From Adhaeribacter aerolatus (GTDB taxonomy: Bacteria > Bacteroidota > Bacteroidia > Cytophagales > Hymenobacteraceae), in the NCBI RefSeq assembly GCF_007991635.1, contig NZ_BJYS01000005.1, forward strand, positions 124,001 through 188,000: a stretch of DNA of 64,000 nt, written 5' to 3'. The position numbers and the translations under genes are program-made. Under the pieces are notes generated by a model that did no database searches, was not told where the DNA came from, and worked only from the letters and a program-made list of their open reading frames with translations. Positions 2,470-50,487 of this stretch are shown here, one piece after another (within the stretch, counting starts at the first letter, position 1; every line of letters starts with the position of its first letter).

Positions 2470-3165
2470 ATGACCATAATCTTCAGTAAAGACAGTCAGA
2501 AGGATAAGAAATGGGCTGCCAGCTTCTTTTTATACAAAAGGCAGCTAGCTTTTTTTGTACTTACCTTTTTATTAAGCCAGCTTTTTCCCTCCCGGGTTTT
2601 TAGTTACCCCCAAGATAAACAAACTTCAACATTAGCTACCGAGCAGTCAACTACCTGGGAAGCGGTTATTGGCAATGTGTTAATATACCGGCCTGGGTAT
2701 GGAATAAAGAAAATAGAACTTAAAACAACAGATTCGCCGGAACCTGAATTAGTGGTGCCAGAAAAGGATGGGACGCTCCGCCTACTGGCGGAGAAGGGTC
2801 GGGGCCTTGGACCAAAAATTAAATACATGCCGGAATGGAAAGCATACGGCTGGTTCACCGCCGATGATCAGGTAGAATGGGAAGTGCAGGTAAAGAAAGG
2901 TAGCTACGACGTGTACTTGGAGTGGTCGGTGTCCGATCAGGAGGCCGGTAAGCCCTTTGTTTTTAAGGTCGGCGATCAGACTTTAACCGGAACAGTAGAA
3001 CCTTCCGGTTCCTGGGAGGATTTTAAAACGGTAAAAATTGGCCATCTGAAACTGCGCTCCGGACGACAGAAAATGGTTTTTAAACCAAATTCTAAGTTCG
3101 ATACAGGAGCTATTCTGGATTTAAGGGAAATAAAGCTGGTGCCGGCTAAGCCTACTAATCCTTAA
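2470..3165 (+). CDS. Exported protein with a carbohydrate-binding-like beta-sandwich domain
   Basis: 231 residues. The N-terminus is long and basic, followed by a hydrophobic stretch (about residues 25-45, FFVLTFLLSQLFPSRVFS) that reads as a signal peptide. The C-terminal half (about 125-228) has the pattern of a CBM6/CBM35-like galactose-binding sandwich: a 'VEWEVQVKKGSYDVYLEWS' strand pair, a central GxW-type SGSW segment, then 'GRQKMVFKP' and a terminal 'LDLREIKLVP' strand. Domains of this kind bind glycans and are often found with PVC-type dehydrogenases and trehalose-utilisation-like proteins. No catalytic motif is seen. It lies 49 bases after the dehydrogenase and 28 before the ceramidase-like gene, so co-transcription is likely. 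The domain assignment is by pattern only. Confidence 0.7.
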   Translation: MTIIFSKDSQKDKKWAASFFLYKRQLAFFVLTFLLSQLFPSRVFSYPQDKQTSTLATEQSTTWEAVIGNVLIYRPGYGIKKIELKTTDSPEPELVVPEKDGTLRLLAEKGRGLGPKIKYMPEWKAYGWFTADDQVEWEVQVKKGSYDVYLEWSVSDQEAGKPFVFKVGDQTLTGTVEPSGSWEDFKTVKIGHLKLRSGRQKMVFKPNSKFDTGAILDLREIKLVPAKPTNP

Positions 3166-33389: not shown

Positions 33390-35315
33390 TTATTCCGCTA
33401 TCCGGGTAACTTTAAACTCGGTACGGCGGTTGCGCTGGTGTTCTTCTTCGGTTTTAGCGTTTTTCACAATTAACCGGGTTTCGCCGTAGCCTTTAGCGGT
33501 TACCCGTTTGGGATCGATGCCTTTGGAAATAATATAGGCCACCGCCGATTTAGCCCGCCGGTCCGATAAATCTAAGTTATAGGCATCTTTGCCACGTACG
33601 TCAGTATGTGAGCTTAATTCAATCGTAATTTTCGGGTTATCTACCAGCGTTTGCACCAGTTTATCCAGTTCCAGGGCCGCATCCGGACGAATATCGGCTT
33701 TGTCTAAATCGTAGTAAATATTCTCGACCACAATCGGCTTGTTCTTCACAATCTTAGACAGGGTTAATGTAGCTGATAACCGAATATCAGTTAAAGGTTT
33801 GGTAAGCGAGGCCTGCGGCGGTGTTTTCCCCACCGTTGTTATGGCCTGACGGGCGGCAAAATAGCCGGGCCGCTGGGCAATAATAGAATAGGTGCTGGCT
33901 GTATCGAGGGCAAAACTTAAAACACCGGCTTCATTGGTCAATTCATCTTCCAGCCGTTTGCCTTGGGCATCCTGCAGCGTTACCCGGATGTTATTGATGG
34001 GCTTGGTACCGGCATTGCCTTCGAGTTGCTCCAGTACTTTTACATCCAGGAAGAAAGCCACCAATTTAGGCTGGTTCTTTTTGAAGAAGTAAATATCATC
34101 GCTGCCTTTGCCCCCTTCGCGCTCCGAAGAAAATAACCCGGATTCGGCGCTTAACGGGTAAATACCGAAATCGTCACCAGTGGAGTTAATCTCCGGCCCC
34201 AGGTTTACGACTTTATTCTCTACTACCTTAAAAATATCGAGCTTACCTAAACCAGGGTGACCATCCGAAGCAAAATAGAAAGTACCATCTTCGCCTACGG
34301 CCGGAAAGCTTTCGTTACCAGGTGTATTGATAGGTGCCCCCAGGTTTTCGGGTGCCGAGAAGTTACCGGCATTATCAAGGGTAGCTTTGTAGATATCGGT
34401 ACCGCCCTGGCCGCCTTTTCGGTCGGAGGCGAAATAAAGGGTTTTGCCGTCGGGCGCTAAAAATGGCGTAGAATCCCAGGCATCGGTTTTGTTCAGCCGA
34501 ATGAGGCGGGGCTCCGACCAGGCACCGGATCTAAACCTGGAAATAAACAAATCTACATTCTCTCTACCTTTTTTGGTGCCTTCGTTGCCGCGGGCAAATA
34601 TTACGGTTTTGCCGTCGGGCGTAAAGGTGGCTACCGCATCGTGAATGCCAGATAAGTTCAGCAGGGCTTCGTATTTGCGCACCGAACCGGCACTCAGCAT
34701 ATCGTTGGGGTTGCTGGGTTTAAAGGCGTATAAATCGGTGAAACCCTGGCCGTTGCCTTTAAAGGTAGCACCACCACCACGCGACGAGGCAAAAATAACT
34801 TCGCCTTCGGCCATGGCTATCCCGAAATCTGCTGCCTCCGTATTTATTTGTTCCAGCGGCGTTATTTCAAAATAGTTTTTGGCTTTCAGCACCTGCGGCA
34901 ATTCGGCCAGATTAGCGACTTCACGCTTAGCCCGTTCTACAGCAACTTTGTTAGCCCCTACCTGAATATATTTGCTTAGTTCGGTGCTGGCTTCGTTGTA
35001 TTTGCCATTTGCTTGCAGGGCTAAGCCATAATTCAGAAAAACATCATCTTTTTTGTAGCCATTATCCAGGGCCGCTTTGTAAAAAGGCTCCGCCAGTTGA
35101 ATGCGGTTAGACAAACGATACGCTTCGGCCAGTTTATAATTTAGTTCGGCGTTGGTTTCTTTTCCTTTTAACGCTTTCTGGTAAAGTGCAATAGCAGGCT
35201 GGTATTCTTCGCGGGCAAAAAGCTTATCGGCTTTGCCAGCTTTATCAACCACGGCGCAGGCCGCCAGCGACAGGAACAGAAAACTATAAAGGAGCGTGTA
35301 TATTTTTTGCTTCAT
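33390..35315 (-). CDS. OmpA-family lipoprotein with TPR and PD40 propeller repeats
   Basis: 641 residues. The lipobox SLAAC puts the lipidated Cys at 20. TPR-like repeats follow (about 25-140, e.g. 'AIALYQKALKGKETNAELNY'), then PD40/WD40-like propeller blades (about 165-400, with GKTVIFARGNEG, GKTLYFASDRKGGQGGTDIY and DGTFYFASDG). A carboxypeptidase-regulatory-like domain (about 420-500) precedes a C-terminal OmpA domain (about 525-641) with YYDLDKADIRPDAALELDKL, SSHTDVRGKDAYNLDLSDRR and the peptidoglycan-binding Asp/Arg pair. This architecture is shared with PorE and Pal-like proteins of the type IX secretion and gliding systems. It anchors outer-membrane complexes to peptidoglycan. Confidence 0.93.
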   Translation of the reverse strand: MKQKIYTLLYSFLFLSLAACAVVDKAGKADKLFAREEYQPAIALYQKALKGKETNAELNYKLAEAYRLSNRIQLAEPFYKAALDNGYKKDDVFLNYGLALQANGKYNEASTELSKYIQVGANKVAVERAKREVANLAELPQVLKAKNYFEITPLEQINTEAADFGIAMAEGEVIFASSRGGGATFKGNGQGFTDLYAFKPSNPNDMLSAGSVRKYEALLNLSGIHDAVATFTPDGKTVIFARGNEGTKKGRENVDLFISRFRSGAWSEPRLIRLNKTDAWDSTPFLAPDGKTLYFASDRKGGQGGTDIYKATLDNAGNFSAPENLGAPINTPGNESFPAVGEDGTFYFASDGHPGLGKLDIFKVVENKVVNLGPEINSTGDDFGIYPLSAESGLFSSEREGGKGSDDIYFFKKNQPKLVAFFLDVKVLEQLEGNAGTKPINNIRVTLQDAQGKRLEDELTNEAGVLSFALDTASTYSIIAQRPGYFAARQAITTVGKTPPQASLTKPLTDIRLSATLTLSKIVKNKPIVVENIYYDLDKADIRPDAALELDKLVQTLVDNPKITIELSSHTDVRGKDAYNLDLSDRRAKSAVAYIISKGIDPKRVTAKGYGETRLIVKNAKTEEEHQRNRRTEFKVTRIAE

Positions 35316-35400
35316 TAATTTTTCGGCAGCAGTTTATAAAACAGGGTAATAAAAAGGAATAAAAGCAATATTACAACGATTATCTCCTTTATATATTATT

Positions 35401-35883
35401 TTAAAAATAACGCGCCAACCAGGTTTCTTTAGCCGGTTTGGGCCAGTTATTAAATATATGGCCGGCGGTAGATACAGTATTATCAAAATACAAGCTTTCC
35501 GCTGCCAACTCGCCGGTGCTAATCTTTTCTTTAATGGCTTTTAGCGGTACTACTTCTACCCCGTTATCCTTTAAAAAGGCTAATTGGGTGCGGTCGAAGA
35601 ATGAAACGTTTAACTGTTCTTCGAGTTGTTTTACAAACCGCACCGAAGCATCTATGGAGCAGCCGCTCGGCGAGTTTACGTCTTCGTTATTGGCCAGCAC
35701 CAAAAAACGGTTATGGAATATTTGTGCTGAAGCCTGCAGCATCTCGCCGTGGCTGGTCCACTCGGTTGAAAACCGGGAAAGTAACGGATGAACGGCTTCT
35801 ACTTCGGCATTGGTAAGGGTACGGCTGGCCTGGTAAATCCAAACGCGGGCATTTTCCGGCAATTGGTTAAATGGAATATACAT
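35401..35883 (-). CDS. Conserved Bacteroidota protein, unknown function
   Basis: 160 residues. Opens MYIPFNQLPENARVWIYQAS, then SRFSTEWTSHGEMLQASAQI, 'FLVLANNEDVNSPSGCSIDA' and SVRFVKQLEEQLNVSFFDRT, and closes ETWLARYF. The 'SGCSIDASV' block is strongly conserved in this family as recalled. Homologues are often labelled 'ABC transporter ATPase', but there is no Walker A, signature or Walker B motif, so that name is wrong. No signal peptide or membrane segment. Cytoplasmic. 85 bases upstream of ompA in the same orientation. Confidence 0.8.
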   Translation of the reverse strand: MYIPFNQLPENARVWIYQASRTLTNAEVEAVHPLLSRFSTEWTSHGEMLQASAQIFHNRFLVLANNEDVNSPSGCSIDASVRFVKQLEEQLNVSFFDRTQLAFLKDNGVEVVPLKAIKEKISTGELAAESLYFDNTVSTAGHIFNNWPKPAKETWLARYF

Positions 35884-37078: not shown

Positions 37079-38485
37079 TTAAGCCGTACGGGTATGCCAC
37101 GGGCCTGTGATAGCTACCGTTAGGCCGGCCGCTTGTAAATTTACAAAGTAAGTTTCGCCGGTTGGTGAAAATACGCCGCCGGCAAATTCGCTGGCAGAAC
37201 CTATATTTTGCGCCAGTTTGTAAAACTCACCTTTGGGGGTTATACCTACTACAAAAGGCGCCGCATTATCTTCACATAAAATTAAATCGCCCCAGGCCGA
37301 TACCGTCATGTTATCGCAGGCGTTGGCAATAGTAGAATCGTGCGATTCTACAAAAAGCTCTAATTTACCGGGTTGTTTCGCCTCATCGGGTTTGCCTTCG
37401 TACATACTTGGCGTATACCTAAATACTTGTCCGTAGGATAATTTACCGCCGTTGGTACAGGCAAAATAGACCTCATTGTTGCCAAACCACATGCCTTCGC
37501 CACGCGCAAAACGGGCAGCGCCTTTATCGTAACCCTGCAACCGCAAGTCGTTCTCCGGCGACTCCACATTCTCAATATCTATCCAGGCTACATCAAAGGC
37601 CTGACCAATAGGCATGGGCGGAGTAGTTAATTTGGCCCAGTTGCGGGTATCCATACTTTTCTGCTCGCGTATTACCAGCGCCTGCAGTTTGCCGCCTTTT
37701 AATAATTTGCCGTTCTTTTTCGGAATAAACCGGTAAATTAAGCTGTCCGAGGTATCTTCGGTCATGTAAACAATGCCGGTCCGCGGGTCTACCGAAACGG
37801 CTTCGTGGTTCATGCGGCCCATTGCTTTTATCGGCACTGCCTTGGTAAGCTGCATTTTATCGCTGGCCGGCACTTCAAAATTATAACCGTGCTCTTTTTC
37901 ACAAGCGTTTTCCGCATTGGGCTTTAACACCGATTCTTCGCAGGTTATCCAGGTATTCCAGGGGGTCAGGCCGCCGGCACAATTGCGGGTAGTACCTACT
38001 AAGCTCAAAAATTCTTTTTCTACTTCGCCGGTAGCCGGGTTGTAAACAACGGTAGTAGTGCCCCCTAACTGCGGATCGCCCTTACCAAAATCATAAACTT
38101 TATCTTTGTCTATTTTCGAAAGCATTTCGTTTTGCGCCCCAAAAGCGCCACTGCCCGGGGTGGCACTCAGCTCGTGGTTGCGAACCAGAATAACGCGTCC
38201 TTTCGGACCCTTAAATGCCGCCATCCCATCCGGCGCGCCCGGCACTAATAAGCCATCGCTCATCTGGTTACCCTTTTTAGAAATAATTTTGTAGGAGAAA
38301 CCTTGGGGCAAACTAAGCAAGCCCTTCGGGTCGGGCACCAGCGGGCCGTAACCTATTTTGGCGGCAGGGCTTTCGGCAGCCAATAAAGGATTGCGAACAA
38401 AATGATGTAAGCCCATAAACCCCAGCGAGGCCATACCGGTTAATTTAAGAAAGTCGCGTCTGGAGGTGTTTTGGTTTCGGCTCAT
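37079..38485 (-). CDS. PhoX-type phosphatase / DUF839 protein with Tat signal
   Basis: 468 residues. A twin-arginine signal (SRRDFLKLTGMASLGFMGL) is present, so export of a folded, metal-bound protein is expected. The body has the PhoX/DUF839 beta-propeller blocks: RVILVRNHELSATPGSGAFG, GGTTTVVYNPATGEVEKEF, 'STRNCAGG'-type GTTRNCAGGLTPWNTWITCE and GRMNHEAVSVDPRTGIVYMT. PhoX enzymes are calcium- and iron-dependent phosphomonoesterases. The ligand residues cannot be verified without alignment. It lies 268 bases downstream of the phytase gene on the same strand, next to a SusCD locus. A phosphorus-acquisition role fits that context, but many DUF839 proteins have no proven activity. Confidence 0.85.
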   Translation of the reverse strand: MSRNQNTSRRDFLKLTGMASLGFMGLHHFVRNPLLAAESPAAKIGYGPLVPDPKGLLSLPQGFSYKIISKKGNQMSDGLLVPGAPDGMAAFKGPKGRVILVRNHELSATPGSGAFGAQNEMLSKIDKDKVYDFGKGDPQLGGTTTVVYNPATGEVEKEFLSLVGTTRNCAGGLTPWNTWITCEESVLKPNAENACEKEHGYNFEVPASDKMQLTKAVPIKAMGRMNHEAVSVDPRTGIVYMTEDTSDSLIYRFIPKKNGKLLKGGKLQALVIREQKSMDTRNWAKLTTPPMPIGQAFDVAWIDIENVESPENDLRLQGYDKGAARFARGEGMWFGNNEVYFACTNGGKLSYGQVFRYTPSMYEGKPDEAKQPGKLELFVESHDSTIANACDNMTVSAWGDLILCEDNAAPFVVGITPKGEFYKLAQNIGSASEFAGGVFSPTGETYFVNLQAAGLTVAITGPWHTRTA

Positions 38486-38753
38486 AACTGTTTAATATTT
38501 AATGTTTTCTAATTTTTCTAATTTATGAGGAATAATTATTTAATAAAAATTGAATGAAGAAAAATTCTCACTCAAAACAATGCCTTATGAAAAACTTATT
38601 TACAGATTTGCCTGCCTTTATCCCCGTTTTCAGTTGGGTAGAGTAGCAATTTTTAACAAGCCATTACTTAATTTCTTATTAAGTTTGAAGCTTTATTGAT
38701 TTAAAAATCAAATTATTTTATCTATAAGTTACCGGGCTGAATAAAACATTAAA

Positions 38754-39830
38754 TTATTTCTCTATGATATCCTGCCAGGAATAATATTGAAAGGTTTTAT
38801 CATCTGACATGGCCACGAACAGGCCTTTAGGAAACTTCTCATTTAATGCAACAGAGGTAACTTCACTCCCATCACTACTTATGGTAGAAACATCAATTAC
38901 TTTGACCAGGCGATGATCGTGCGGATTATTTTTTGTTCCTTCCCGGGTAAATATATGGAATTTATTTGCCTGCTGATCTGACACGATAATATAGCCGGTT
39001 TTATCTTTTTTGGTATAAATACTAACTCCTTCATGGTCTTCGGTAAAACCGGAGGTCGCAAATAAAGCCAGTTCTACGTTGGCACTATCCGGGTCGGCAT
39101 AATATTTTCTTACGCCAATGGTTTCGTCAGAATAATAAACATAGCCCAGTTCAGCATCTACGGCTATCGACTCTATTTCTTTGTTGCCACTATACTTCCC
39201 AAATTCCCTCACTTTCCGGCCTTTGATATTACCAGATTTATCTTCTTCCAATAAATATTGCCACAGGTAAGTACCGTTTCGGGGACCATCTTTTCTGCCA
39301 ACTATGGCGTAAATATTGCCATCAGACGGCCGTTTGTACAGGGAAATGCCCATTGGAGCCCTTTGTTTCTCCCCTGCAAATACATCAATACCCCCATTAT
39401 CTATCGGCTGCATTTCCGGCAGGCGATAGATTCTGATTTTATTCGTCAGCCGCTCGGTTGTTACAGCAAAATCTATGAGTTGACCGCGCAATTTAAAGCC
39501 ATAAGCAATATCTACATTATTGGGTCTTTTTAGTCCGGTTACTACTTTCTCCTTTATTATCTTTCCTTCCAGATCATAAACATATAATGCCCCCTCCTGA
39601 TTCTTATCTGTACCAATAATTAAACTTTTGGCCGGGTCCTGCGGATTAATCCAGATGGCCGGATCATCGGTATCGTGGGCGGCAGGCTCCGTTACTACCA
39701 AGGGCGCGATTTTAGCAGCGTTGCTTATTTTTGGGTTAACCGATAAGGACTCCTGGTTTTTCTGGGGAGTCTGGTTACAAGCGCCAAGGATGAAAAAAAG
39801 TAACAATAAAGGGAGCAGGGTAGATTTCAT
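38754..39830 (-). CDS. Beta-propeller phytase lipoprotein
   Basis: 358 residues. Lipobox FILGAC gives lipidated Cys18, so the enzyme is probably on the cell surface or periplasmic face of a membrane. The beta-propeller phytase (3-phytase) motifs are DTDDPAIWINPQDPAKSLII, GTDKNQEGALYVYDLEGK, NNVDIAYGF, 'IESIAVDAELGYVYYSDETI', GVRKYY, DHEGVSIY and YIIVSDQQANKF. These carry the acidic calcium ligands typical of the fold. BPP enzymes cleave inositol hexakisphosphate to lower inositol phosphates and phosphate. It begins 111 bases after the susD stop on the same strand. A hairpin sits between them, so it is likely the third gene of the susC-susD operon. Confidence 0.93.
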   Translation of the reverse strand: MKSTLLPLLLLFFILGACNQTPQKNQESLSVNPKISNAAKIAPLVVTEPAAHDTDDPAIWINPQDPAKSLIIGTDKNQEGALYVYDLEGKIIKEKVVTGLKRPNNVDIAYGFKLRGQLIDFAVTTERLTNKIRIYRLPEMQPIDNGGIDVFAGEKQRAPMGISLYKRPSDGNIYAIVGRKDGPRNGTYLWQYLLEEDKSGNIKGRKVREFGKYSGNKEIESIAVDAELGYVYYSDETIGVRKYYADPDSANVELALFATSGFTEDHEGVSIYTKKDKTGYIIVSDQQANKFHIFTREGTKNNPHDHRLVKVIDVSTISSDGSEVTSVALNEKFPKGLFVAMSDDKTFQYYSWQDIIEK

Positions 39831-39859
39831 GAATTAATAGAAGTTTCGGGAATTAAATA

Positions 39860-39899
39860 AGCTAAACAGCCCTCCTGATTTTTAGAAGGCTATTTAGCT
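39860..39899 (-). promoter_or_regulatory. Intercistronic hairpin between susD and phytase
   Basis: AGCTAAA (39860-39866) pairs with TTTAGCT (39893-39899) and AGCC with GGCT inside, giving a bulged stem over a 40-base interval. Without a T run it is more likely a processing or attenuation element that lets phytase be expressed at a lower level than SusCD. Reading is by eye only. Confidence 0.4.
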
Positions 39900-39941
39900 A
39901 ATATCATAAATTTAAAAGTTTGCTCAACAACTATATTCAAT

Positions 39942-41591
39942 CTAAAACCCTGGGTTTTGCGGCATCTTCTCTGTTAAGTTAGCATCAATAACCGATTGCG
40001 GGATGGGGAACAGGGTGTCTCTTTCTTTTACATTTTGCCCGCCAAAAGTATTATACTTTCGCGTCCTTTCCAGCCACTTGCCGGTTCGTAATAAGGTGTA
40101 GCGGCGGTATTCCTCGTTAAATAATTCCCGCGAACGCTCGTCTAGGATAAAATCAATATTTATATCACTTGCTTTTACATCGCTGGCATTAGACCTTCTT
40201 CTGATAATATTTATGGTTTCGGCCGCCCCAGCGGCATTGCCGAGTTTAAACTGGGCCTCTGCTTTTAACAAATAAGTATCGGCCAGCCTTACCGCAATGT
40301 AATCGTCGTAATTAAAATCCGAGGCAACGTCATCCGGAATACTGCCTTCGTGTTTCCGGGAATAGGGCCAATCGTTTCGTTCCCAGGTGGCAGCGGTTAG
40401 GGGCCTGCTCCAGTTTAATTTCAGGGTATCGCCATAAGCATAACCTTTCGGTAACCGGTCGGCAGGGTGCGGGGCATTGGCCGCTGCATTATTAAGAATG
40501 AAATACTTTCTTAAGGCATGATTGCTGGCCCGGTCATCCTGGGGTTCATAAGACTCTATCCACCATTTGGTGGGTGCGGTATAGGCTTTGCCCCGGCCGC
40601 CTCTGGCGAAAGTAATCTGCAAAGGCTGCACCCCGCCAATGCTAATATCCATATACCTTTGCAGGTGCATAGCCCGGGGCCGGGGGTTGGTACCACCGCC
40701 AACTACCTGAAAACCGAATTGCCACACCCATAAGGCTTCGGTATTGCCTTGCTCCCGGTTTTTGTTACCTTCATAAAACATATCCATAAACGGAACGCCC
40801 GGTTTGCTTGCATTTACCCCGTATCGTTTGGTAATAAGTTTGTACTGTGGGGTATTAATTACTTTATCGGCATATTGCAAAGCTTTTTGCGGTTCCTCCA
40901 TTACCAGGTACATCTCGGCCAGATAATGCTGAATAACGCCTTTGCTCATTCGCCCCGCAATGGGCTGCACCGGAATATATTGCTCGGCAAACAAAAGATC
41001 TTCTACAATTTGCGCCCTTACTTCTTTAACCGGGGTCCGGGCCCAATTTGTTTTAATAGAGTTGCCCGACGATTCTGTTAACGACAAAGGCACATCGCCC
41101 CAGAGATAAGTAAGGTGGCGGTATGCCCAGGCTCTTATGGCCCTGGCTTCTGCTATTACAAAATTCTTGTTAGCTGTTTCATCTCCCGCTCCTCCTTTCC
41201 AGTTTACCGTTTCTCCTTCGGCCCGATCGATGATGGTATTGGTAGCATTTACAATGCCGTAGAGCCAAGAAAACACATCCCGGAGTGTAGAATTTTCCGA
41301 ATTATTAACGTCGCCCCATTTAGAAGCCAGGTTACCAAAGCCGGAAATATAATTGGGGCTCATGTTATCGGTGCCATTTACAAATACCTGGAAAGGCATA
41401 CTGGCATCGCGGATTTCGTTTCGGATTTCGGAATAAGCACCATTAATGCCGGTTTGAAACCCGGCATAATCTGTATAGAGTTTATCGGAGGTAATTAAAT
41501 GTGGCGGGTCTTCATTTAAAGGGTCATTTAAGTCACAACCTGAAAACAGGGTTAAGGTTAAGGATATAGCTGCTATTTTATATAATTTCAT
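39942..41591 (-). CDS. SusD/RagB family outer-membrane nutrient-binding lipoprotein
   Basis: 549 residues. Lipobox LFSGC puts the lipidated Cys at 19. The N-terminal SusD-like domain begins 'DPLNEDPPHLITSDKLYTDY' with AGFQTGINGAYSEIRNE, then NATNTIIDRAEGE, TPR-like 'IAEARAIRAWAYRHLTYLWG', PLSLTESS and VIQHYLAEMYLVM. C-terminal RagB sequence includes DDYIAVRLADTYLLKAEAQF, 'INIIRRRS' and the closing LLRTGKWLERTRKYN. SusD forms the lid on the SusC channel and binds the substrate at the surface. It is 44 bases after susC. The ligand type cannot be read from the sequence, but the neighbouring phytase suggests an inositol phosphate or other organophosphate. Confidence 0.96.
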   Translation of the reverse strand: MKLYKIAAISLTLTLFSGCDLNDPLNEDPPHLITSDKLYTDYAGFQTGINGAYSEIRNEIRDASMPFQVFVNGTDNMSPNYISGFGNLASKWGDVNNSENSTLRDVFSWLYGIVNATNTIIDRAEGETVNWKGGAGDETANKNFVIAEARAIRAWAYRHLTYLWGDVPLSLTESSGNSIKTNWARTPVKEVRAQIVEDLLFAEQYIPVQPIAGRMSKGVIQHYLAEMYLVMEEPQKALQYADKVINTPQYKLITKRYGVNASKPGVPFMDMFYEGNKNREQGNTEALWVWQFGFQVVGGGTNPRPRAMHLQRYMDISIGGVQPLQITFARGGRGKAYTAPTKWWIESYEPQDDRASNHALRKYFILNNAAANAPHPADRLPKGYAYGDTLKLNWSRPLTAATWERNDWPYSRKHEGSIPDDVASDFNYDDYIAVRLADTYLLKAEAQFKLGNAAGAAETINIIRRRSNASDVKASDINIDFILDERSRELFNEEYRRYTLLRTGKWLERTRKYNTFGGQNVKERDTLFPIPQSVIDANLTEKMPQNPGF

Positions 41592-41635
41592 GGTAGTACT
41601 TTTTAGATGTAAAAGAATTATTCAAGAAGCCGCAA

Positions 41636-44600
41636 TCATAGCCCTACTTGCAAGCCGAAAACATATTCACGTTGCAAAGGAATAGACCGTTGGTTGTCCA
41701 ACTCCGGATCCATACCCCGCCAATCGGTTAGCATAAGTAAGTTTCGCCCGGTAGCATAAACCCGGAACCGGTTGCCGCCTACTTTCTGGATTAAATTTTT
41801 TGGCAGGTCATAAGCAAGCGTAATGTCTTTTAAGCGGACAAAGCTGGCATTTTCATAAATATTGGTAGTAACACCGGCCATCCGGTTGGCATCTACGTGG
41901 TTCATATACCACTCATTGCTCGGGTTATCCGGAGTCCACCAGTTTTTTACAATGGTGCTCTGCCGAACGCCGGAAGTTACAACCTGATCATCCATTAAGA
42001 TATTCTGTTTGGTTACGCCATGTACTCCGTGGATAAAAGCCGTTAAGCTAAAGTTGCCGTAAGAAAAGGTGTTGGTTAAGCCCCAGTTTAATTTAGGATC
42101 CTGCTGACCGATTATTTGCCGGTCGTCGGGCGTAATCTTACCATCGCCGTTTAAATCTTTAATTTTTATATAGCCGGGTTTTGTCTTCCATTCTGCCGCT
42201 TTAGCGGCTTCGTCTAACTGCCACACGCCATCAAATACATAATCATAGTTAACCCGGATGGGCTGTCCGATAAACCATTTGTTGTTAATATCGTCCAGCC
42301 CGTTGCCATATAAATCCACTATCTTATTATGCACGTAGCCAATATTCCCGAAGGTGGACCAGGTAAATTTCTTGGTGGATATATTTCTGGTATTAAGAGA
42401 AAATTCTACCCCCTGGTTTTCAGTTTCTCCGATATTTTGTAAAATAGAAGTAATACCATGCACCGAAGAAATAGACCGGTGCAGCAGCAGATCATAAGTA
42501 TTTGTGTGAAAGGCATTAATAACACCCGATACCCGGTTACCCCAAATGCCAAAATCTAAACCAATATTGGTGGAACGGGAGCTTTCCCAGCCAAGCGCTT
42601 CCTGCCCCAGGGTGCTCGGAAAATAGCCCGGCATGGTGGTGTTGCCCGACAGGTAGTTCTCTTCTGCTAAACGGGCCATTGATTGATAAGAACCCACTGC
42701 CTGGTTACCATTTAAACCGTAAGAGCCGCGCAGTTTCAGTTCATTAAATAATTCTTTCCAGGGGAAAAATGCTTCGTTACTGATATTCCAGCCTAAGGCT
42801 ACGGAGGGAAATATTCCCCATTTAGAGTCGGCGCCAAATCCGGAGAAGCCATCGCGGCGGCCGGTTAAGGTTAAGAGATAACGACTGTTATAAGCATAGT
42901 TTAACCGCAGCATCTGCGATACCAGCCGGGAATCGGTATAATCAAAAGATGGCTTCACCAAATCGGCCTGTCCGCCGGCAAACCAACCTAATAAATCGTT
43001 CGGGAAGCCGCCCATTTCGGTGCTCTCCGAGTTATATGAATCTTTTTGAATACTATAAACCGCCGTGGCAAAGAGCGAATGTAGGCCTAACGTTTTATTA
43101 TATGAGAGAATATTTTCTAGGACTGTATTATTAACATTATCCTTGCGTAAACTGGCACTGCCCTGGGCAACCAATCCATCTAAGGTATTTCGGCCGCGGT
43201 AAGTATTGGCTTCCGTTATTCTATCCATTAATCCATAATTAAACCGGAAGGTTAGCCCTGGAACAAACCGCTCGAAATCGACAATGGCGAAATTATTAGT
43301 TACTACCTGCCGTGATTTATCTTTATTGTCGAATAAGGTGGCCTGCAAGGGATTGCCGCGGGCCGGATCATCTTTAACCGGAATAATGGCCAAGGTGCCG
43401 TCCGGATTGTAAGGCACGGCCAGCGGATTGGCCAGAAAAATATCGTTCATATTGGGCGCAACGCCGCTTTGGTCAGAAAAGGTTAACTGGGTGCGGGTGC
43501 CGATAGTAAGCCAATTGGCTATTTTGGTATCAATATTAAACCGGCTGGTTCCTCGGAAATAATCATCGTTAACCACAATACCCTTAACATTCATTACCCC
43601 GCCCGAAATATAATAGGAGGTTTTGCCAAAGCCTCCGGACACTGCCAAGTTGTGTTGGTTGCTAATACCGGCTCGTATCGAATGGTCCATCCAGTTTACC
43701 CATTCACCGGCATCGTAAACGGCCTGTTCCGATGCCGTTACCCCGGCGGTTAGACGGTCTTTTTTAAACTTATAAAACCCTGGCCCGTCTAAGTATTCCG
43801 GCAGGTTGGCCAATTTCTGAATCGAAACAAACCCATCGTACGAAATTTTAGGAGAACCATCTTTACCTAGCTTGGTGGTAACCAAAATAACGCCATTCGC
43901 ACCTCGCGACCCGTAAATAGCCGCCGAGGAAGCATCTTTTAGAACTTCGATGGATTCAACATCATTCGGATTAATGTCGGATAAATTTCCGCCGTACGGC
44001 ACCCCATCAACCACTACTAGCGGCGAATTATTAGCCCCAATGGAGTTACGCCCCCTTACCATAATTTCCTGGTTGGGAACCGCACCGGCAGAGGTATTCT
44101 GCACCATTACGCCTGGTATAGCCCCTTGTATGGCCTGCGCAATATTTATATTAGGCACCATTTCCAGCCTTTCTTTCGGCAGAGAAGCAACCGACCCAGT
44201 TATGTCGCTTTTCTTCTGGCTCCCATACCCTACTACTACCACTTCTTCCAGAGCCTTGGCATCTGCCGCCATGGTAATATTAAGTGTGGCAGCGTTACCC
44301 ACTATTACTTCTTTGGCCAGAAAACCAATGTAAGAGTAAACCAATGTTCCACCATTGTCCGGCACTTCTATCGAATAATTACCCGCTACATCGGTACTGG
44401 TGCCCGTAGTGGTACCTTTTAAAACAACGGTTACCCCAATTAGCGGCTCACCTGTTTCGGCGGTAACTTTACCGGTTATAGGTCTGGCCGCTAAATTATC
44501 AGTTACTTTTAAATCTGTTTGGTGCAACGGAACGGCCGCCTTTGGTTTATCCAGGGCTTTACCGGCCGGTACATGGCGGTTAATAAAATAAGAACCATCT

Positions 44601-44926
44601 TTTGCTTTTTTAAACCCAAGCCCCAAAGGTTTCAGAACTGCTTTTAAATTTGCTTCCAGGGAGCTTTTAAGATTGACAACATCAGGCGAGGTGGAATAAC
44701 CGGCTACCATCTGGTCAGAAAATAAAATATCTACCTTGTAATGCACTCTTAAATCATATAATACATCTTTCACCTTTCTGGTAGCAGAGTTATTTTGGGT
44801 AGTAACCGGATTATTTTGTTTTTTCTGCCCCATGGCCAGGGTTTGAGCCTGGCACAATGGCTGGCAAGCGAGCATAATAATTATGGGTAAGCTGCAGGCA
44901 TTTAATTGGCGTATTCTTTTCTTCAT
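41636..44926 (-). CDS. SusC/RagA TonB-dependent receptor with N-terminal STN signalling domain
   Basis: 1096 residues with a signal peptide. An STN (secretin/TonB short N-terminal) domain follows at about 50-115 (YDLRVHYKVDILFSDQMVAG). This domain marks receptors that signal to FecR-type anti-sigma factors. Next come a carboxypeptidase-regulatory-like domain at about 150-230 ('ITGKVTAETGEPLIGVTVVL'), the TonB-box area, and a plug at about 235-355 with NIAQAIQGAIPGVMVQNTS and 'DVESIEVLKDASSAAIYGSR'. The 22-strand barrel runs to a C-terminus 'QREYVFGLQVGL'. It imports the ligand captured by SusD across the outer membrane using TonB energy. It lies 224 bases after fecR in a sigma-fecR-susC-susD-phytase order. 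Confidence 0.97.
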   Translation of the reverse strand: MKKRIRQLNACSLPIIIMLACQPLCQAQTLAMGQKKQNNPVTTQNNSATRKVKDVLYDLRVHYKVDILFSDQMVAGYSTSPDVVNLKSSLEANLKAVLKPLGLGFKKAKDGSYFINRHVPAGKALDKPKAAVPLHQTDLKVTDNLAARPITGKVTAETGEPLIGVTVVLKGTTTGTSTDVAGNYSIEVPDNGGTLVYSYIGFLAKEVIVGNAATLNITMAADAKALEEVVVVGYGSQKKSDITGSVASLPKERLEMVPNINIAQAIQGAIPGVMVQNTSAGAVPNQEIMVRGRNSIGANNSPLVVVDGVPYGGNLSDINPNDVESIEVLKDASSAAIYGSRGANGVILVTTKLGKDGSPKISYDGFVSIQKLANLPEYLDGPGFYKFKKDRLTAGVTASEQAVYDAGEWVNWMDHSIRAGISNQHNLAVSGGFGKTSYYISGGVMNVKGIVVNDDYFRGTSRFNIDTKIANWLTIGTRTQLTFSDQSGVAPNMNDIFLANPLAVPYNPDGTLAIIPVKDDPARGNPLQATLFDNKDKSRQVVTNNFAIVDFERFVPGLTFRFNYGLMDRITEANTYRGRNTLDGLVAQGSASLRKDNVNNTVLENILSYNKTLGLHSLFATAVYSIQKDSYNSESTEMGGFPNDLLGWFAGGQADLVKPSFDYTDSRLVSQMLRLNYAYNSRYLLTLTGRRDGFSGFGADSKWGIFPSVALGWNISNEAFFPWKELFNELKLRGSYGLNGNQAVGSYQSMARLAEENYLSGNTTMPGYFPSTLGQEALGWESSRSTNIGLDFGIWGNRVSGVINAFHTNTYDLLLHRSISSVHGITSILQNIGETENQGVEFSLNTRNISTKKFTWSTFGNIGYVHNKIVDLYGNGLDDINNKWFIGQPIRVNYDYVFDGVWQLDEAAKAAEWKTKPGYIKIKDLNGDGKITPDDRQIIGQQDPKLNWGLTNTFSYGNFSLTAFIHGVHGVTKQNILMDDQVVTSGVRQSTIVKNWWTPDNPSNEWYMNHVDANRMAGVTTNIYENASFVRLKDITLAYDLPKNLIQKVGGNRFRVYATGRNLLMLTDWRGMDPELDNQRSIPLQREYVFGLQVGL

Positions 44927-45150
44927 GGTGCGGTAATAATTAAGGATAAGGATGTTGGAATTGGAATAATAAGGGCAAAGGATTTCCAGGCTATAAAAAT
45001 ATAGCTGCTACGAAGGGCTTAAAAATTATAAGATTGAGGAAGAAAAGATTCAGGCAGGTTTTTAATTATTCTAACGTCAACCCTTTTCAACCTGCTTCTA
45101 ACACGGTACTATTTTTTTCATTTGGCGCTTAATTATGTGGTGGATATAGG

Positions 45151-46158
45151 TTATTTGTTAAACAGAATAACATGATTGTTTTGCCGGTTTACATTAATTT
45201 CCAGCACTTCCGAAATTCCCTCCAGAAACTCATCGGCATTTTCGGCTTTAAAGGAGCCCGACAAGGTTTGGGCAGCTAAATTGGGGCCCGACAGTTCCAC
45301 TTCCAAGCCATAATTTTCGCGCAAAATATTTTTAATTTCTTCCAGCGAGGTGTTTTCAAAAACAAACCGGTTTTGCTGCCAGGCGGCATAATTTTCCGGC
45401 TGTACCACTTTTTCTATCTGTGGTTTTGCTGTTTTTTTATCCAGTGTAGCCAAATCCCCTGGGGCCATGGTTAGCAGCTTACGGCTTTCCGAACCATAAT
45501 ACAACTTTACTTTTCCTTTTAATAAAACTACTTTGGTTTCCCGGGGCCGGGCAAAAACATTAAACTCCGTTCCCAGTACTTCTACTTTAAAAGCAGAATC
45601 TGTTTGCACTACAAAACGCTTGTGTTCAGGGGTATGTACTACTGAAAAATGCGCTTCGCCTTTTAAAAATACCTGTCGGCTATTCCGGCCAAACCCAAAG
45701 CGCGGTACTTGCAACGAAGAGTTAGTATTTAGTATTACTTTACTGCCATCCGGCAGATTTATAGCTTGTGTTTGTCCGTAGCCAGTGGCGTAAGTTTTTA
45801 ATAAAATAACATTCCTTGAAAAATAGCCGCTTATCCCCATTATTAGAATAATAGCAGCGGCGGCAACCCATCTTTGCCAGGTTACCCTGGTAATAAATTG
45901 CGGTTCTGCCAATCCGGAAGGTTTGGAGGAAGCCGGTTCTGTATTTATAAGTTTATCATTAAAGTCGGCTATGGCTTTGTTTATATCAACCTGGTACTGC
46001 AAATTATTTTTTTCCCAATTAAACAAGCAGGCATAAAAAAATTCTTCGTTTTCCGGTTCTTCTGCCCATTTCTGAATTAGCTGCTTTTGCAAGGGCGTAA
46101 CCCGGCCCGCAAAATAAGAAAACAATAATTCTTCGGTAATGGGAGTATGTAACGACAT
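45151..46158 (-). CDS. FecR family anti-sigma factor
   Basis: 335 residues. The cytoplasmic N-terminal sigma-binding part is EELLFSYFAGRVTPLQKQLI followed by QKWAEEPENEEFF. One transmembrane helix (about 98-120, WVAAAAIILIMGISGYF) separates it from the periplasmic FecR domain (YGQTQAINLPDGSKVILNTN, then FKVEVLGTEFNVFARP) and the C-terminal DUF4974 domain (about 265-335, FVFENTSLEEIKNILRENYG). DUF4974 contacts the STN domain of the partner SusC. It therefore relays ligand binding by the receiver at 41636-44926 to the ECF sigma factor at 46603-47247. The order sigma-fecR-susC is usual. Confidence 0.96.
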   Translation of the reverse strand: MSLHTPITEELLFSYFAGRVTPLQKQLIQKWAEEPENEEFFYACLFNWEKNNLQYQVDINKAIADFNDKLINTEPASSKPSGLAEPQFITRVTWQRWVAAAAIILIMGISGYFSRNVILLKTYATGYGQTQAINLPDGSKVILNTNSSLQVPRFGFGRNSRQVFLKGEAHFSVVHTPEHKRFVVQTDSAFKVEVLGTEFNVFARPRETKVVLLKGKVKLYYGSESRKLLTMAPGDLATLDKKTAKPQIEKVVQPENYAAWQQNRFVFENTSLEEIKNILRENYGLEVELSGPNLAAQTLSGSFKAENADEFLEGISEVLEINVNRQNNHVILFNK

Positions 46159-46602
46159 TCCTGAAAGTACCCTTGTATGGTTTGATATAGGTTAGACAAG
46201 TAACCAACAAAAAACCCTTACGCTAAGAATTATTTTTTTAAATAATTTTTCTTAAAGGTTTTATAAGCGCAAAAAAGAAAATTGTCCTCATCATTCACGC
46301 TTGGTTTAGCTTACTGGCATTAAGAATCCACTGAATCAAACAGGCTATTATATTTAGCCCGAATATTTAGTTTAACTGCCTGCATATTCGGTTCGCCTAA
46401 AACCATGAAATAGGTAATATTGGTTAAAAGCCTAAACATGAAGCAATTTAACCACCATAACCACAGTAGAAATTAATGCTAAACTACCATTGGGTGGCGC
46501 TCCCTAATTTAATATGGGCTTTAATGAAATCTGCGAAAACTAAGCTAAAAAAGCTGGTTTAAATAAGCAGGACGAGTAAAGAGAGAGGTATAATGCAGAT
46601 GA
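46159..46602. other. Interval between fecR and the ECF sigma gene
   Basis: 444 bases, AT-rich, no credible ORF. It should carry the fecR promoter. A TAnnTTTG box at a sensible distance from the fecR start was not found, which agrees with control by an alternative sigma factor. No strong hairpin. Confidence 0.4.
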
Positions 46603-47247
46603 TTAAGCTAAACAGACAAGTAAGGTAAGCAGCAGCCACTTTTGGCGTAATATCTCTTTTAAAAAAAGGCTCGCCTTTCTGATTTGAGCTTCGACAGTTC
46701 GGGGTGAAAGCTGTAGCTCTGTCGCAATTTCAGCGTATTTCTTGTTTTCGAAGCGGTGCATTAAATAAATTTTACGGCACTGAGACGGCAAAGAATCAAT
46801 GGCAGCCTCTACATCCTGGTACAATTCTTCGTACTGAACAATAGCATCCGGCTGCTGACACACCAAATCCGAAATATCCGCACAGGCTTCTAATTCAACC
46901 GAACGGTTAGCTTCCCAACGCAAATAATTATAAGCACTATTTCTAACGGCTTTATATAGGTAAGCCCGGTAAGAAGAAGTAATTTGTTTATACGTTTCTT
47001 TTTTATAAAACTGGTAAAATATTTCTGAAACGATATCTTCGGCAATTGCTTTGGCGTAAAGAAACCGCACGGCATGACTGCATAAGGATTGATAATAATG
47101 GTGGAAAAGCAATTCGCACCCTTGCCGCGGGTCTACTTCAAAAGCTTGCCTGATAAAAGCTTCATTATCAGTAACTATTGCCTCCTGTTTAACTAACAAA
47201 GCTTTCGGATCTTCCTGCTCTAAAACGGTTTCCAATTCCAGCTTCAT
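46603..47247 (-). CDS. ECF sigma factor (Bacteroidota SusCD-type)
   Basis: 214 residues. Region 2 appears as CELLFHHYYQSLCSHAVRFL and AEDIVSEIFYQFYKKE, followed by the region 2.4 helix 'AYLYKAVRNSAYNYLR'. Region 4 is DSLPSQCRKIYLMHRFENKK followed by the helix-turn-helix YAEIATELQLSPRTVEAQIR. The C-terminus ends in a hydrophobic tail (KWLLLTLLVCLA), a feature of many SusCD-linked ECF sigma factors that may help membrane recruitment or turnover. It is expected to be held by the FecR product of 45151-46158 and to activate the susC-susD-phytase operon. Confidence 0.94.
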   Translation of the reverse strand: MKLELETVLEQEDPKALLVKQEAIVTDNEAFIRQAFEVDPRQGCELLFHHYYQSLCSHAVRFLYAKAIAEDIVSEIFYQFYKKETYKQITSSYRAYLYKAVRNSAYNYLRWEANRSVELEACADISDLVCQQPDAIVQYEELYQDVEAAIDSLPSQCRKIYLMHRFENKKYAEIATELQLSPRTVEAQIRKASLFLKEILRQKWLLLTLLVCLA

Positions 47248-48017: not shown

Positions 48018-48093
48018 TGGTGGTGATGATTGGAATCGAACCAACGACACAAGGATTTTCAGTCCTTTGCTCTACCGACTGAGCTACATCACC
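48018..48093 (-). tRNA. tRNA-Phe (anticodon GAA)
   Basis: 76 bases including encoded CCA. The acceptor stem GGTGATG pairs with CATCACC. The D arm is GCTC-AGTCGGTA-GAGC. The anticodon stem AAGGA/TCCTT holds the loop CTGAAAA with anticodon GAA. The T arm contains GGTTCGATTCC. Discriminator A, then CCA at 48020-48018. Confidence 0.97.
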
Positions 48094-48117
48094 AGCACCT
48101 TTTGATTAAAAAGTATG

Positions 48118-48148
48118 CAAAAGTATGTATTCTGATTTGACTACGCAA
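48118..48148 (-). promoter_or_regulatory. Promoter of tRNA-Phe
   Basis: On the minus strand, TTG (48148-48146), 20-base spacer, TACTTTTG (48125-48118). It is an exact fit to TTG-N17-23-TAnnTTTG, about 18 bases upstream of the predicted start and 25 before the mature 5' end at 48093. Confidence 0.65.
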
Positions 48149-48185
48149 TAGATTGGCAAAATAATTTTTACTAAAAGATATAGTT

Positions 48186-48193
48186 TACTTTTG
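48186..48193 (+). promoter_or_regulatory. Minus-7 box upstream of the HdrC-like gene
   Basis: TACTTTTG fits TAnnTTTG and lies 43 bases before the ATG at 48237. A TTG at the usual distance is not seen, so this is only a half-site. Confidence 0.35.
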
Positions 48194-48236
48194 TTATCAT
48201 TACGTAACGGTATTCAAAACCCCAACCTGTTATTGC

Positions 48237-49595
48237 ATGGTTAGTAATATAATCTTCCTGTTGGTAGCTATTGCCGGTATTGGCCTTTTTGCATGGCAAG
48301 TCCGGAAAATAAGCAAGAATATAAACCTGGGCCGCGACAAGGCTATTGCGGGTAACCCGGCGGAGCGCATTAATAAATTGTTGCTGGTGGCTTTTGGGCA
48401 GCAGAAAATGTTTAAACGGCCCTGGCCGGCCATTTTGCACGCGGTGGTATACGTGGGCTTTCTGGTAATAAATATTGAGGTGCTGGAAATATTAATAGAC
48501 GGCATTTTCGGTACACACCGGGTGCTGAGTTTCCTGGGACCCGTTTACAGCGCCTTAATGGCCGTGAACGAAATATTGGCTTTCCTGGTAATAATAGCCT
48601 GCGTTATTTTCCTGGCCCGCCGCAATATTACCAAAGTGCCCCGCTTAGCCCGCGGCCCTGAGATGCGGGCCTGGCCCAAGCTGGATGCCAATATTATTCT
48701 GGTGGTAGAGATTGTGCTGATGCTGGCTTTGTTTGCCTTTAATATTGCCGATTTAAAAATGTACGCGCAGCGCGGCGAAGAACTGGCAGGCAGTTTTCCG
48801 ATTAGCCAATTATTTGTAAATATTTTTGGCAGCGATACAGCTACGCTGGAAGTAATCCGGGCGACAGGCTGGTGGATACATATTCTGGGTATTCTGGCTT
48901 TCCTCAATTATTTGCCCAGCTCCAAGCACTTCCACATTATTATGGCATTCCCCAACGTATATTATTCGCGCCTGGAGCCCAAGGGCCAGTTTACTACCAA
49001 CGAGAGTATTACCCATGAGATAAAGGCCATGCTGGACCCCAGCTACCAGGTGCCGGTACTGCCCGAAGGAGTTGAACCGCAAAAGTTTGGGGCGAAAGAT
49101 GTAGAAGACCTGACCTGGAAGCAACTAATGGATGCCTACACTTGTACCGAATGCGGCCGCTGTACCGATGTTTGTCCGGCTAATATTACCGGCAAGTTGT
49201 TGTCGCCGCGCAAAATTGTAATGGATACCCGCGACCGGCTGGAAGAGAAAGGTGAACATCCGGCAATATTCCGGCCCAATCATTATAAAGAACAAGGCGA
49301 AGAACGGGTAAAGACCACCGGAGAAAAAACGTTGCTGCGCGGCTACGTAACTCCCGAAGAACTCTGGGCCTGTACTACCTGCAACGCCTGCGTAGAAGCC
49401 TGTCCGGTAAATATCGACCAGCTTTCGTCAATTATGGACATGCGGCGGTACCTGGTGCTGGAAGAATCGGCAGCGCCCAATGCCCTCAACAGCATGTTTA
49501 CCAATATCGAAAACAACGGTGCCCCCTGGGCCTTCTCCCCATCTGACCGGCTGAACTGGGCCAATAATTTGTTTATAGAAGAAAAAAGTAGTTAG
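48237..49595 (+). CDS. Membrane-bound HdrC/GlpC-like iron-sulphur protein
   Basis: 452 residues. An N-terminal membrane domain of about five helices (residues 2-20, 58-78, 98-122, 148-172, 208-228) resembles nitrate-reductase gamma/HdrE. It is followed by two 4Fe-4S clusters: CTECGRCTDVCPANITGK and CTTCNACVEACPVNIDQ. It likely takes electrons from a quinone and passes them to the CCG-domain partner encoded downstream (49687-50487), 91 bases away. Together they form an HdrBC-like complex of unknown donor/acceptor. In other Bacteroidota this gene pair is widely conserved. There is no flavoprotein or glycerol-3-phosphate dehydrogenase gene here to indicate the reaction. Confidence 0.92.
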   Translation: MVSNIIFLLVAIAGIGLFAWQVRKISKNINLGRDKAIAGNPAERINKLLLVAFGQQKMFKRPWPAILHAVVYVGFLVINIEVLEILIDGIFGTHRVLSFLGPVYSALMAVNEILAFLVIIACVIFLARRNITKVPRLARGPEMRAWPKLDANIILVVEIVLMLALFAFNIADLKMYAQRGEELAGSFPISQLFVNIFGSDTATLEVIRATGWWIHILGILAFLNYLPSSKHFHIIMAFPNVYYSRLEPKGQFTTNESITHEIKAMLDPSYQVPVLPEGVEPQKFGAKDVEDLTWKQLMDAYTCTECGRCTDVCPANITGKLLSPRKIVMDTRDRLEEKGEHPAIFRPNHYKEQGEERVKTTGEKTLLRGYVTPEELWACTTCNACVEACPVNIDQLSSIMDMRRYLVLEESAAPNALNSMFTNIENNGAPWAFSPSDRLNWANNLFIEEKSS

Positions 49596-49685
49596 CTGTT
49601 AGTTATTAGTGGTTAAAGAAATCTTCCACTACTCCATTTATCATTACTAAAACTAAAAGCTAATTACTAAAGACTAATTACTAAA
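49593..49685. repeat. TTAGTTATTAGT-type inverted repeat in the iron-sulphur gene spacer
   Basis: The left arm (about 49592-49613) is made of TTAGCTGTTAGTTATTAGTGG. The right arm (about 49645-49685) consists of CTAATTACTAAAG-like units in the opposite sense. It fills the whole spacer between two co-directional genes. Third instance of this repeat style in the window. Confidence 0.55.
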
Positions 49686-49686
49686 A

Positions 49687-50487
49687 ATGAAAAGACAAAT
49701 AACGGTACCCACCATGGCCGATTACATGGCCCGCGGCGAAATGCCCGAAATATTGTTTTGGGTGGGTTGTGCCGGCGCTTTCGATGATCGTTATAAAAAC
49801 GTGACGCGGGCTTTTGTGCGGATATTGGAACACGTGGGCATTAAATACGCGGTGTTGGGTTTAGAAGAAAGCTGCACCGGCGATCCGGCCAAGCGGGCAG
49901 GCAACGAGTTTCTGTTTCAGATGCAGGCCATGACCAATATTCAGGTACTCGATGGCTACGGCATCAAAAAAATTGTAACGGCTTGTCCGCATTGTTTTAA
50001 CACCATCAAAAACGAATATCCGGCATTAGGCGGTAATTACGAGGTTATCCACCACAGCACGTTTTTGCAGCAACTCATTAACGAGGGCAAAGTACGCCTG
50101 GCCGATGGCGGCAGCTTTAAAGGAAAGCGCATTACCTTCCACGACTCCTGCTACCTGGGGCGGGCCAATGGCATTTACGAGGCGCCCCGCGAAGTAATTG
50201 CTGCTTTGGATGTAGATTTAGTAGAAATGAAGCGGAGCCGGGCCAATGGTTTGTGCTGCGGTGCAGGCGGTGCCCAGATGTGGAAAGAGCCCGAACCTGG
50301 CCGCAAAGACATCAACATCGAACGCACCGAAGAAGCTCTGGCTCTGGAACCTGCCATCATAGCCTCGGCCTGTCCGTTTTGTATGACGATGTTATCAGAC
50401 GGGGTTAAGAACAAAGACCGGGAACAGGATGTACAAGTATTTGATATTGCTGAATTGATTGCTTCGGCCGAAGGACTTAATGCTTAA
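49687..50487 (+). CDS. CCG-domain iron-sulphur protein (HdrB/LutA-like)
   Basis: 266 residues with no membrane segment. Two CCG-like cysteine-rich domains: the first has FWVGCAGAFDDRYKN, LEESCTGDPAKRAG and ACPHCFNTIKNEYP; the second has FHDSCYLGRANG, GLCCGAGGAQMW and ACPFCMTMLSDGV. Such domains bind non-cubane 4Fe-4S clusters in HdrB and related proteins and form the electron-accepting or thiol-reducing site. Note the first domain's reduced cysteine content relative to the second. It pairs with the membrane iron-sulphur protein at 48237-49595. Confidence 0.93.
   Translation: MKRQITVPTMADYMARGEMPEILFWVGCAGAFDDRYKNVTRAFVRILEHVGIKYAVLGLEESCTGDPAKRAGNEFLFQMQAMTNIQVLDGYGIKKIVTACPHCFNTIKNEYPALGGNYEVIHHSTFLQQLINEGKVRLADGGSFKGKRITFHDSCYLGRANGIYEAPREVIAALDVDLVEMKRSRANGLCCGAGGAQMWKEPEPGRKDINIERTEEALALEPAIIASACPFCMTMLSDGVKNKDREQDVQVFDIAELIASAEGLNA

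Follow-up and report, generated by a model that had tools for sequence, protein, structure and literature searches.

A SusC/SusD locus carrying phytase and PhoX genes in Adhaeribacter aerolatus: a candidate phosphorus-acquisition unit

Pairs of SusC and SusD proteins (SusCDs) are by default read as glycan importers, and a pair whose only accompanying hydrolases release phosphate raises the question of what it takes up. Such a pair lies at 37079-47247, on the minus strand, of the window analysed here, a stretch of 64,000 nucleotides from Adhaeribacter aerolatus (contig NZ_BJYS01000005.1, positions 124,001 to 188,000), together with genes for an extracytoplasmic function (ECF) sigma factor, a FecR regulator, a beta-propeller phytase and a PhoX-family phosphatase. 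A sequence-only reading of this DNA had proposed a phosphorus-directed analogue of a polysaccharide utilisation locus (PUL). We favour, with moderate confidence, a closely similar answer: a phosphorus-acquisition SusCD unit under STN-FecR-sigma control, of the type known as phosphate utilisation systems (PUS), on two grounds: phosphatases of differing kinds accompany related SusCDs, and homologues of this PhoX sit behind sigma-FecR-SusCD sets in loci of the PUSII type. The proposal stands in part: its phosphorus-directed SusCD is the best reading, its general idea was already in print (accessible part of PMC8115612), and a conserved place for the phytase is not supported. The unit would most likely import a phosphate ester and remove its phosphates under substrate-sensing control.

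Genes and protein domains of the locus

The genes run in the order sigma factor, FecR, SusC, SusD, phytase, PhoX with no further gene between them, and profile searches assign each to the family that the sequence-only reading had named. The sigma factor is Bacteroidetes FecI-like (46603..47247; Sigma70_r4_2 8e-15, Sig70_bacteroi1 1.1e-38) and lies 444 bases ahead of the FecR sigma regulator (45151..46158; FecR profile 3.8e-18), which is followed after 224 bases by an N-terminally extended SusC/RagA TonB-dependent transporter (41636..44926; TIGR04056 2.4e-257) and, 44 bases further, by a SusD-like lipoprotein (39942..41591; SusD_RagB 1.5e-27), one of 75 SusD_RagB matches in this genome of 6.7 Mb and 95 contigs. 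The coordinates confirm a gap of 111 bases between susD and the gene for the beta-propeller phytase with its lipoprotein signal LGAC (38754..39830; PF02333 1.2e-47, 1cvm 2.4e-36), and the PhoX-family alkaline phosphatase, with the twin-arginine translocation (Tat) type signal SRRDFLK (37079..38485; PF05787 4.4e-80), comes last. Phytase and PhoX, both phosphate-releasing, are indeed the sole hydrolases found between 37079 and 47247 by profile search of the open reading frames, and glycoside hydrolases, lyases and carbohydrate esterases went undetected among the genes of this interval. By this content the locus falls outside the definition of a PUL. It combines a SusC-like/SusD-like pair with phosphoesterases rather than carbohydrate enzymes, a co-localisation characteristic of PUS, a concept published for Flavobacterium in 2020 (accessible part of PMC8115612).

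The phytase is the single PF02333 match in the genome. Its residues 48-344 align to the Bacillus beta-propeller phytase, and it keeps the family profile as well as the DDPAIW and NNVD stretches. Among 22 compared positions, which we take to be residues of the calcium and phosphate sites, 14 are identical, including D55, D56, K76, R122, K179, E211, E227, D258, E260, Q279 and D314 in a numbering offset from the printed chain, and eight differ, including Tyr159, which is Met, and Asp308, which is Ser; every one of the 44 further Bacteroidota phytases in the alignment also has Met at position 159. Several closest relatives in the fetched loci reach 60-62% identity. PhoX retains the NC..TCEE and HE blocks of Pseudomonas PhoX, in which the conserved cysteine and HE residues presumably have ligand roles.

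SusC, whose N-terminal extension is about 148 residues long, had been described as having an STN domain, the signalling domain carried by SusCs of PULs under sigma/anti-sigma control (accessible part of PMC7782687). Pfam did not call an STN in the window SusC; among five homologous SusCs it did so above the cut-off in one (L144) and below it in three (L208, L136, L159), with no match in the fifth (L169), and the window SusC aligns to L144 across the Pfam-positive region. An AlphaFold model of residues 1-148 has a mean pLDDT of 61, with good modelling confined to about residues 50-118 (44573..44779). Seven of its eight best Foldseek matches are the signalling domains of PupR, FoxA, FecA and PupB, with probabilities of 0.77-0.99 and E-values of 0.15-0.87, none of them significant, and the remaining one is the methylesterase BT1017. 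With the sigma factor and FecR recognised by profile and an STN-like domain suggested by alignment and model, the STN-FecR-sigma set appears complete.

Cargo of related SusC/SusD pairs and neighbourhoods of PhoX

Relatives of the window SusD were drawn from a named genome collection (ten of them) and from searches of the family, phylum and order, made at strict E-values with at most the best 7, 3 and 3 candidates per genome, respectively; they occur in at least 7 of 200 family, 4 of 395 phylum and 6 of 390 order genomes, A. aerolatus included. Contig ends shorten some of the neighbourhoods (3.9 kb for L143, 9.0 kb for L140, 6.5 kb for L230). The nearest SusDs, L135 (76% identity) and L136 of Indibacter alkaliphilus (75%), are the only ones above 65% in the collections scanned, and residues 150-1096 of the window SusC are 76% identical to the Indibacter SusC. 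In Indibacter, Porin_O_P and PhoA come behind the SusCD, along with a protein whose N-terminal domain is that of purple acid phosphatases, and a two-component system lies upstream. The genome G408 (SusD 59%) has the order FecR-SusC-SusD-PhoA, behind a sigma-like gene identified by sequence reading only; until the coding strand switches, PhoA is the only gene to follow susD there. Metallophosphoesterases accompany the SusDs of L137 and L139 (58-59%), in L139 as the second gene. The A. aerolatus genome itself contributes three paralogues of the clade on contig C7 (58-60%), two of them with metallophosphoesterases that bear purple-acid-phosphatase domains, amid MauG, GSDH and GH2, and the third with GSDH and weak GH matches. 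This C7 cluster (L158 and L159; G000:C7:140000-179800) also has an imelysin with MauG and xylose-isomerase-like proteins. The SusD gene of L143 (PWMI01000040.1) stands in an entry for an archaeal metagenome-assembled genome (Diapherotrites) and is probably misbinned Bacteroidota DNA.

In the SusD tree, from which a short fragment (L159, position 1) was omitted and in which L182 was labelled a control, the window, L135 and Indibacter sequences group at full support within a 15-row clade (96/92) that contains all seven phosphatase-bearing SusDs. The controls are 22 SusDs of the A. aerolatus genome, drawn from 15 loci; at least two of these SusDs have phosphoesterase cargo. Against these, phosphoesterase cargo is in excess among close relatives (7/9 with the window included and the cut chosen post hoc, versus 2/22, p = 0.0004) and in the 15-row clade with the window (7/15, p = 0.017). 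Two of the positive cases are adjacent copies on contig C7, and the count of metallophosphoesterases used a local model derived from four case proteins, a bias that favours the cases. Pfam scans covered 37 of the 74 case cargo frames; the 53 control frames were scanned jointly, giving the best 25 of 61 families, and ten of them singly as well, which makes 2/22 a lower bound. The control locus L182 (G000:C5:50300-70200) itself makes a second SusCD area of phosphorus type on the contig of the window, with SusDs at 3027 and 9722, a purple acid phosphatase behind one of them and a type I phosphodiesterase behind the other.

Judged from gene neighbourhoods, PhoX is a stronger link to phosphorus than the SusCD relatives are. 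Its homologues occur in 12 of the 200 family genomes (own genome included) and in seven of the eight genomes of the genus, the closest at 87% identity in a congener (G007). Neighbourhoods were read for 11 relatives. In that of G007, about 9 kb separate PhoX from a phytase paired with a TonB receptor. Two genomes, G088 and G096, show sigma-FecR-SusC-SusD-PhoX on one strand in the order of the window, with PhoX 63% identical and a SusCD only distantly related to that of the window; the SusD was identified by Pfam in G088 and by position and look in G096. In G088, PhoX is followed by a fusion of PhoA with a GDPD_2 region, whose PF13653 match (1.1e-5) falls slightly short of the cut-off, and then by an Exo_endo_phos protein. 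SusDs of the G088 type are present in 17 of the 111 genomes of the genus g19, probably Flavobacterium as judged from phytase frequency and gene order, and in all 15 loci read there, SusC-SusD is followed by the start of a homologue of the GDPD/PhoA fusion. These loci have the same arrangement as Fjoh_3252-3249 of Flavobacterium johnsoniae, the PUSII system FecR-PusC2-PusD2-PhoA1, in which PhoA1 bears pf13653 and whose fold changes under phosphate depletion are given as 9.88, 9.03, 8.94 and 7.40 in gene order (PMC8115612, Table 1). PhoX thus seems to have been acquired by two different sigma-FecR-SusCD sets, of which one is of a kind reported to be induced by phosphate depletion.

A direct comparison of the window pair with the Flavobacterium PusCDs gave no sign of orthology among the candidates scored, at most 17 per genome in 81 genomes of g19: two SusDs passed E 1e-40, at 34 and 35% identity. 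It is the PhoX homologues that connect the window to PUSII. PusD is described as polyphyletic (accessible part of PMC8115612).

Phytase context, genomic site and alternative readings

Phytases are present in 33 of the 200 family and 51 of the 395 phylum genomes (own genome included), and we read 74 phytase neighbourhoods outside the A. aerolatus genome, each of at most 20 kb. These cover 40 of the 42 strong phylum matches; left out were a partial match in the family (G197) and, in the phylum, both strong matches of G338 and all partial matches of at most 62 bits. A TonB receptor lies within 6 kb of the phytase in 63 of the 74 loci, in 38 of them on the same strand and less than 600 bases away. 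This receptor belongs to one family of about 940 residues that is at most weakly similar to the window SusC. A SusD was found within 6 kb in a single locus (L129), which has a TonB receptor too. The sequence-only reading had suggested looking for the order sigma-fecR-susC-susD-phytase in relatives and had named homologous SusCD pairs lacking a phytase in most of them as evidence against itself; in the stretches read, no phytase lies around any of the clade's 20 further SusDs. A conserved phytase-SusCD link is therefore rejected for the loci read, and in the window the phytase sits outside its usual TonB-receptor context.

In L035, L046, L062 and L063, two or three adjacent phytase-family frames reach up to about 1290 residues, and the usual TonB receptor is absent within 6 kb. 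In G264, one frame (L215:2674-4740) fuses a purple-acid-phosphatase/metallophosphoesterase part to a polysaccharide lyase part; on one side of it is a TonB receptor, on the other a phytase that a SusCD follows.

The locus looks like a mosaic, as judged from the nearest relatives of its parts: regulators of the L174 kind, an Indibacter-like transporter, the PhoX of the genus and a phytase away from its usual TonB-receptor setting. Among the fetched loci, the sigma factor, FecR and the SusC N-terminus are nearest to L174 (58, 48 and 45%), on the same contig of the same genome. L174 (G000:C5:111400-131300) carries ceramidase-like and DUF7133/cytochrome c cargo. The corresponding site of seven congeners keeps together tRNA-Phe, an iron-sulfur oxidoreductase pair and the two genes that stand to the left of the locus in the window; in none of the seven did a locus protein have a match there (20 kb read, 6.5 kb for G006). 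In the window those two genes sit across the oxidoreductase pair, as if inverted. The genes contiguous in congeners are thus split (33390-35883 and 48018-50487) by the locus beside tRNA-Phe, as after an inversion with insertion. Either the locus was gained at the tRNA-Phe site or it was lost from it in the congeners.

Several results weigh against a phosphorus-acquisition unit. The closest SusD, L135, is followed by an SGL/cupin protein and no phosphatase, and the cargo of the wider SusD clade includes GH2, GH88, alginate lyase, rhamnosidase and esterases. The phosphatase label does not cluster on the SusD tree (6 changes against 6.7 when shuffled, 131 of 500 shuffles being as low), and without the window the case-control comparison gives 6/20 against 2/22 (p = 0.12), or p = 0.42 when the 6/20 are set against only the 15 control SusDs having any cargo. 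The window SusD is not basic, and SusD charge gave no signal as a hint of phosphate binding (pI 6.7 in the window, 4.7 in Indibacter). No SusC or SusD match was found near PhoX in the stretches read for eight of the 11 relatives, G007 among them. Within the locus, a strong RNA hairpin that the sequence-only reading does not mention (39860..39899, minus strand) stands between the susD and phytase genes; a possible terminator or attenuator, it may lower or stop read-through, and 268 bases separate the phytase gene from phoX. The hairpin rests on a fold statistic (z = -3.88, with 0 of 200 shuffles equally stable), and the scan for terminator-like sites gave 8 against 13.9 in shuffles. A scan for promoters, which gave 28 sites where shuffles gave 24.1, was not used, and the Rfam scan of the window returned two tRNAs and nothing else. 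Cargo is exchanged often behind these SusCDs. Because the phosphatase label is scattered and the excess is clear only in close relatives, the SusCD by itself is no proof of a phosphorus substrate.

The strongest competitor, in our view unlikely, is that the SusCD imports a carbohydrate, perhaps a uronic or phosphorylated glycan, which the phosphatases dephosphorylate, making the locus a PUL with phosphatase cargo. Cargo is mixed in the SusD clade of 21 members: some of these, and the sister group of the clade, have GH88, alginate lyase, GH2 or rhamnosidase. To this are added the SGL/cupin protein of L135, the C7 loci, where phosphoesterases mix with GSDH, GH2 and sugar-isomerase-like proteins, and G009, in which PhoX is flanked by two SusCDs with GH95 adjoining. 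However, the window unit lacks any carbohydrate-active enzyme, and in G408 PhoA is the only gene on the susD strand ahead of the strand switch.

A further alternative, which we hold to be quite unlikely, is that phytase and PhoX are chance neighbours of an unrelated SusCD, independently expressed in a variable region beside tRNA-Phe. It would fit the hairpin after susD, the long gaps, the eight PhoX relatives in which no SusCD was detected alongside, the failure to find the locus at the site in all seven congeners, where tRNA-Phe and flanks are present (a 6.5-kb contig in G006), and the fact that the phytase is linked to this SusCD in no other genome examined. It fits less well with the related SusCDs of two other genomes that also precede PhoA, with PhoX homologues behind other sigma-FecR-SusCD sets, and with six genes on one strand and none intervening.

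Proposed function and comparison with known systems

For the phosphorus-acquisition unit we infer the substrate, import, signalling and co-expression from sequence comparison. SusC-SusD would bind and import a phosphate ester or a phosphorylated organic molecule. At the envelope, the phytase lipoprotein would dephosphorylate inositol phosphates, perhaps along with other esters, and PhoX, exported by Tat, would finish monoesters in the periplasm. Engagement of the substrate by SusC would pass via the STN-like domain to FecR, activating the sigma factor for the transport genes. Since a phytase is in the locus, phytate and lower inositol phosphates are the leading substrate candidates, and a phosphorylated sugar is a possible alternative. 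Phytate is an abundant form of soil phosphorus that is hard to use. That the phosphatases only break a chelate, the system scavenging iron or calcium from phytate, is very improbable. In its favour, signalling through STN, FecR and a sigma factor is typical of iron carriers, and FecR and the modelled STN-like domain resemble iron-signalling parts. Phytic acid also chelates iron (accessible part of PMC3400609). Against it, the transporter is a SusCD rather than a receptor of the siderophore type, and the accessible part of PMC8115612 reports the F. johnsoniae PusCDs as induced under phosphate depletion only.

A more specific proposal, which we regard as tentative and on balance doubtful, is that the locus encodes an inositol-phosphate SusCD importer with its own switch, behind which the genome's single beta-propeller phytase has been placed, importing partly dephosphorylated forms selfishly and induced through STN-FecR-sigma by the ester and not by phosphate hunger alone. 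In this proposal, PUS-type units would have been assembled repeatedly by slotting PhoX, PhoA, purple acid phosphatases or phytase behind sigma-FecR-SusCD modules. The general PUS idea is already published; the new twist is a phytase on a SusCD, and no description of a SusCD coupled to phytase and PhoX was found in the open-access literature searched. Should this SusCD take up inositol phosphates, no earlier example is found in that literature, and the locus would offer a direct way to ask whether Bacteroidota acquire organic phosphorus in the selfish manner that they use for glycans. Phosphorus-directed SusCD loci, known from Flavobacterium, are here indicated in Cytophagales in other combinations, a warning that the default reading of SusCDs as glycan uptake systems is unsafe.

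The locus shares parts with several known systems. With PUSII of F. johnsoniae it has in common a FecR-linked SusCD and phosphatase cargo. The PUSII SusC has a signalling-type N-terminal domain (pf16344; PMC8115612, Table 1), as the window SusC has an STN-like one, and the PUSII-related loci of G088 and G096 carry the PhoX noted above. PUSII differs in apparently belonging to another SusCD clade and in having the GDPD/PhoA fusion as cargo, whereas the window has phytase and PhoX. The phytase/TonB-transporter pair, seen as Fjoh_1367/1368 and in the 63 of 74 Bacteroidota loci described above, likewise places a phytase of the same family near a TonB-dependent importer, but its receptor comes without SusD, whereas the window has SusC and SusD with their own sigma factor and FecR. 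Under phosphate depletion, F. johnsoniae induces its phytase, the adjoining TonB transporter and PhoX (accessible part of PMC8115612), and in Citromicrobium, too, a phytase stands beside a TonB receptor (accessible part of PMC3400609).

Closest in the transporter is the Indibacter alkaliphilus locus, where the SusC and SusD are orthologous, FecR lies upstream and the cargo, as in the window, is phosphatases, its PhoA bearing a twin-arginine-like signal; it differs in that these phosphatases are non-homologous to those of the window, in its phosphate-selective porin and two-component system, and in that no phytase or PhoX was found there. PULs under sigma/anti-sigma control, finally, are alike in the SusCD pair, the STN-bearing SusC and the regulators (accessible part of PMC7782687), but their cargo is carbohydrate-active, whereas the cargo of the window unit releases phosphate.

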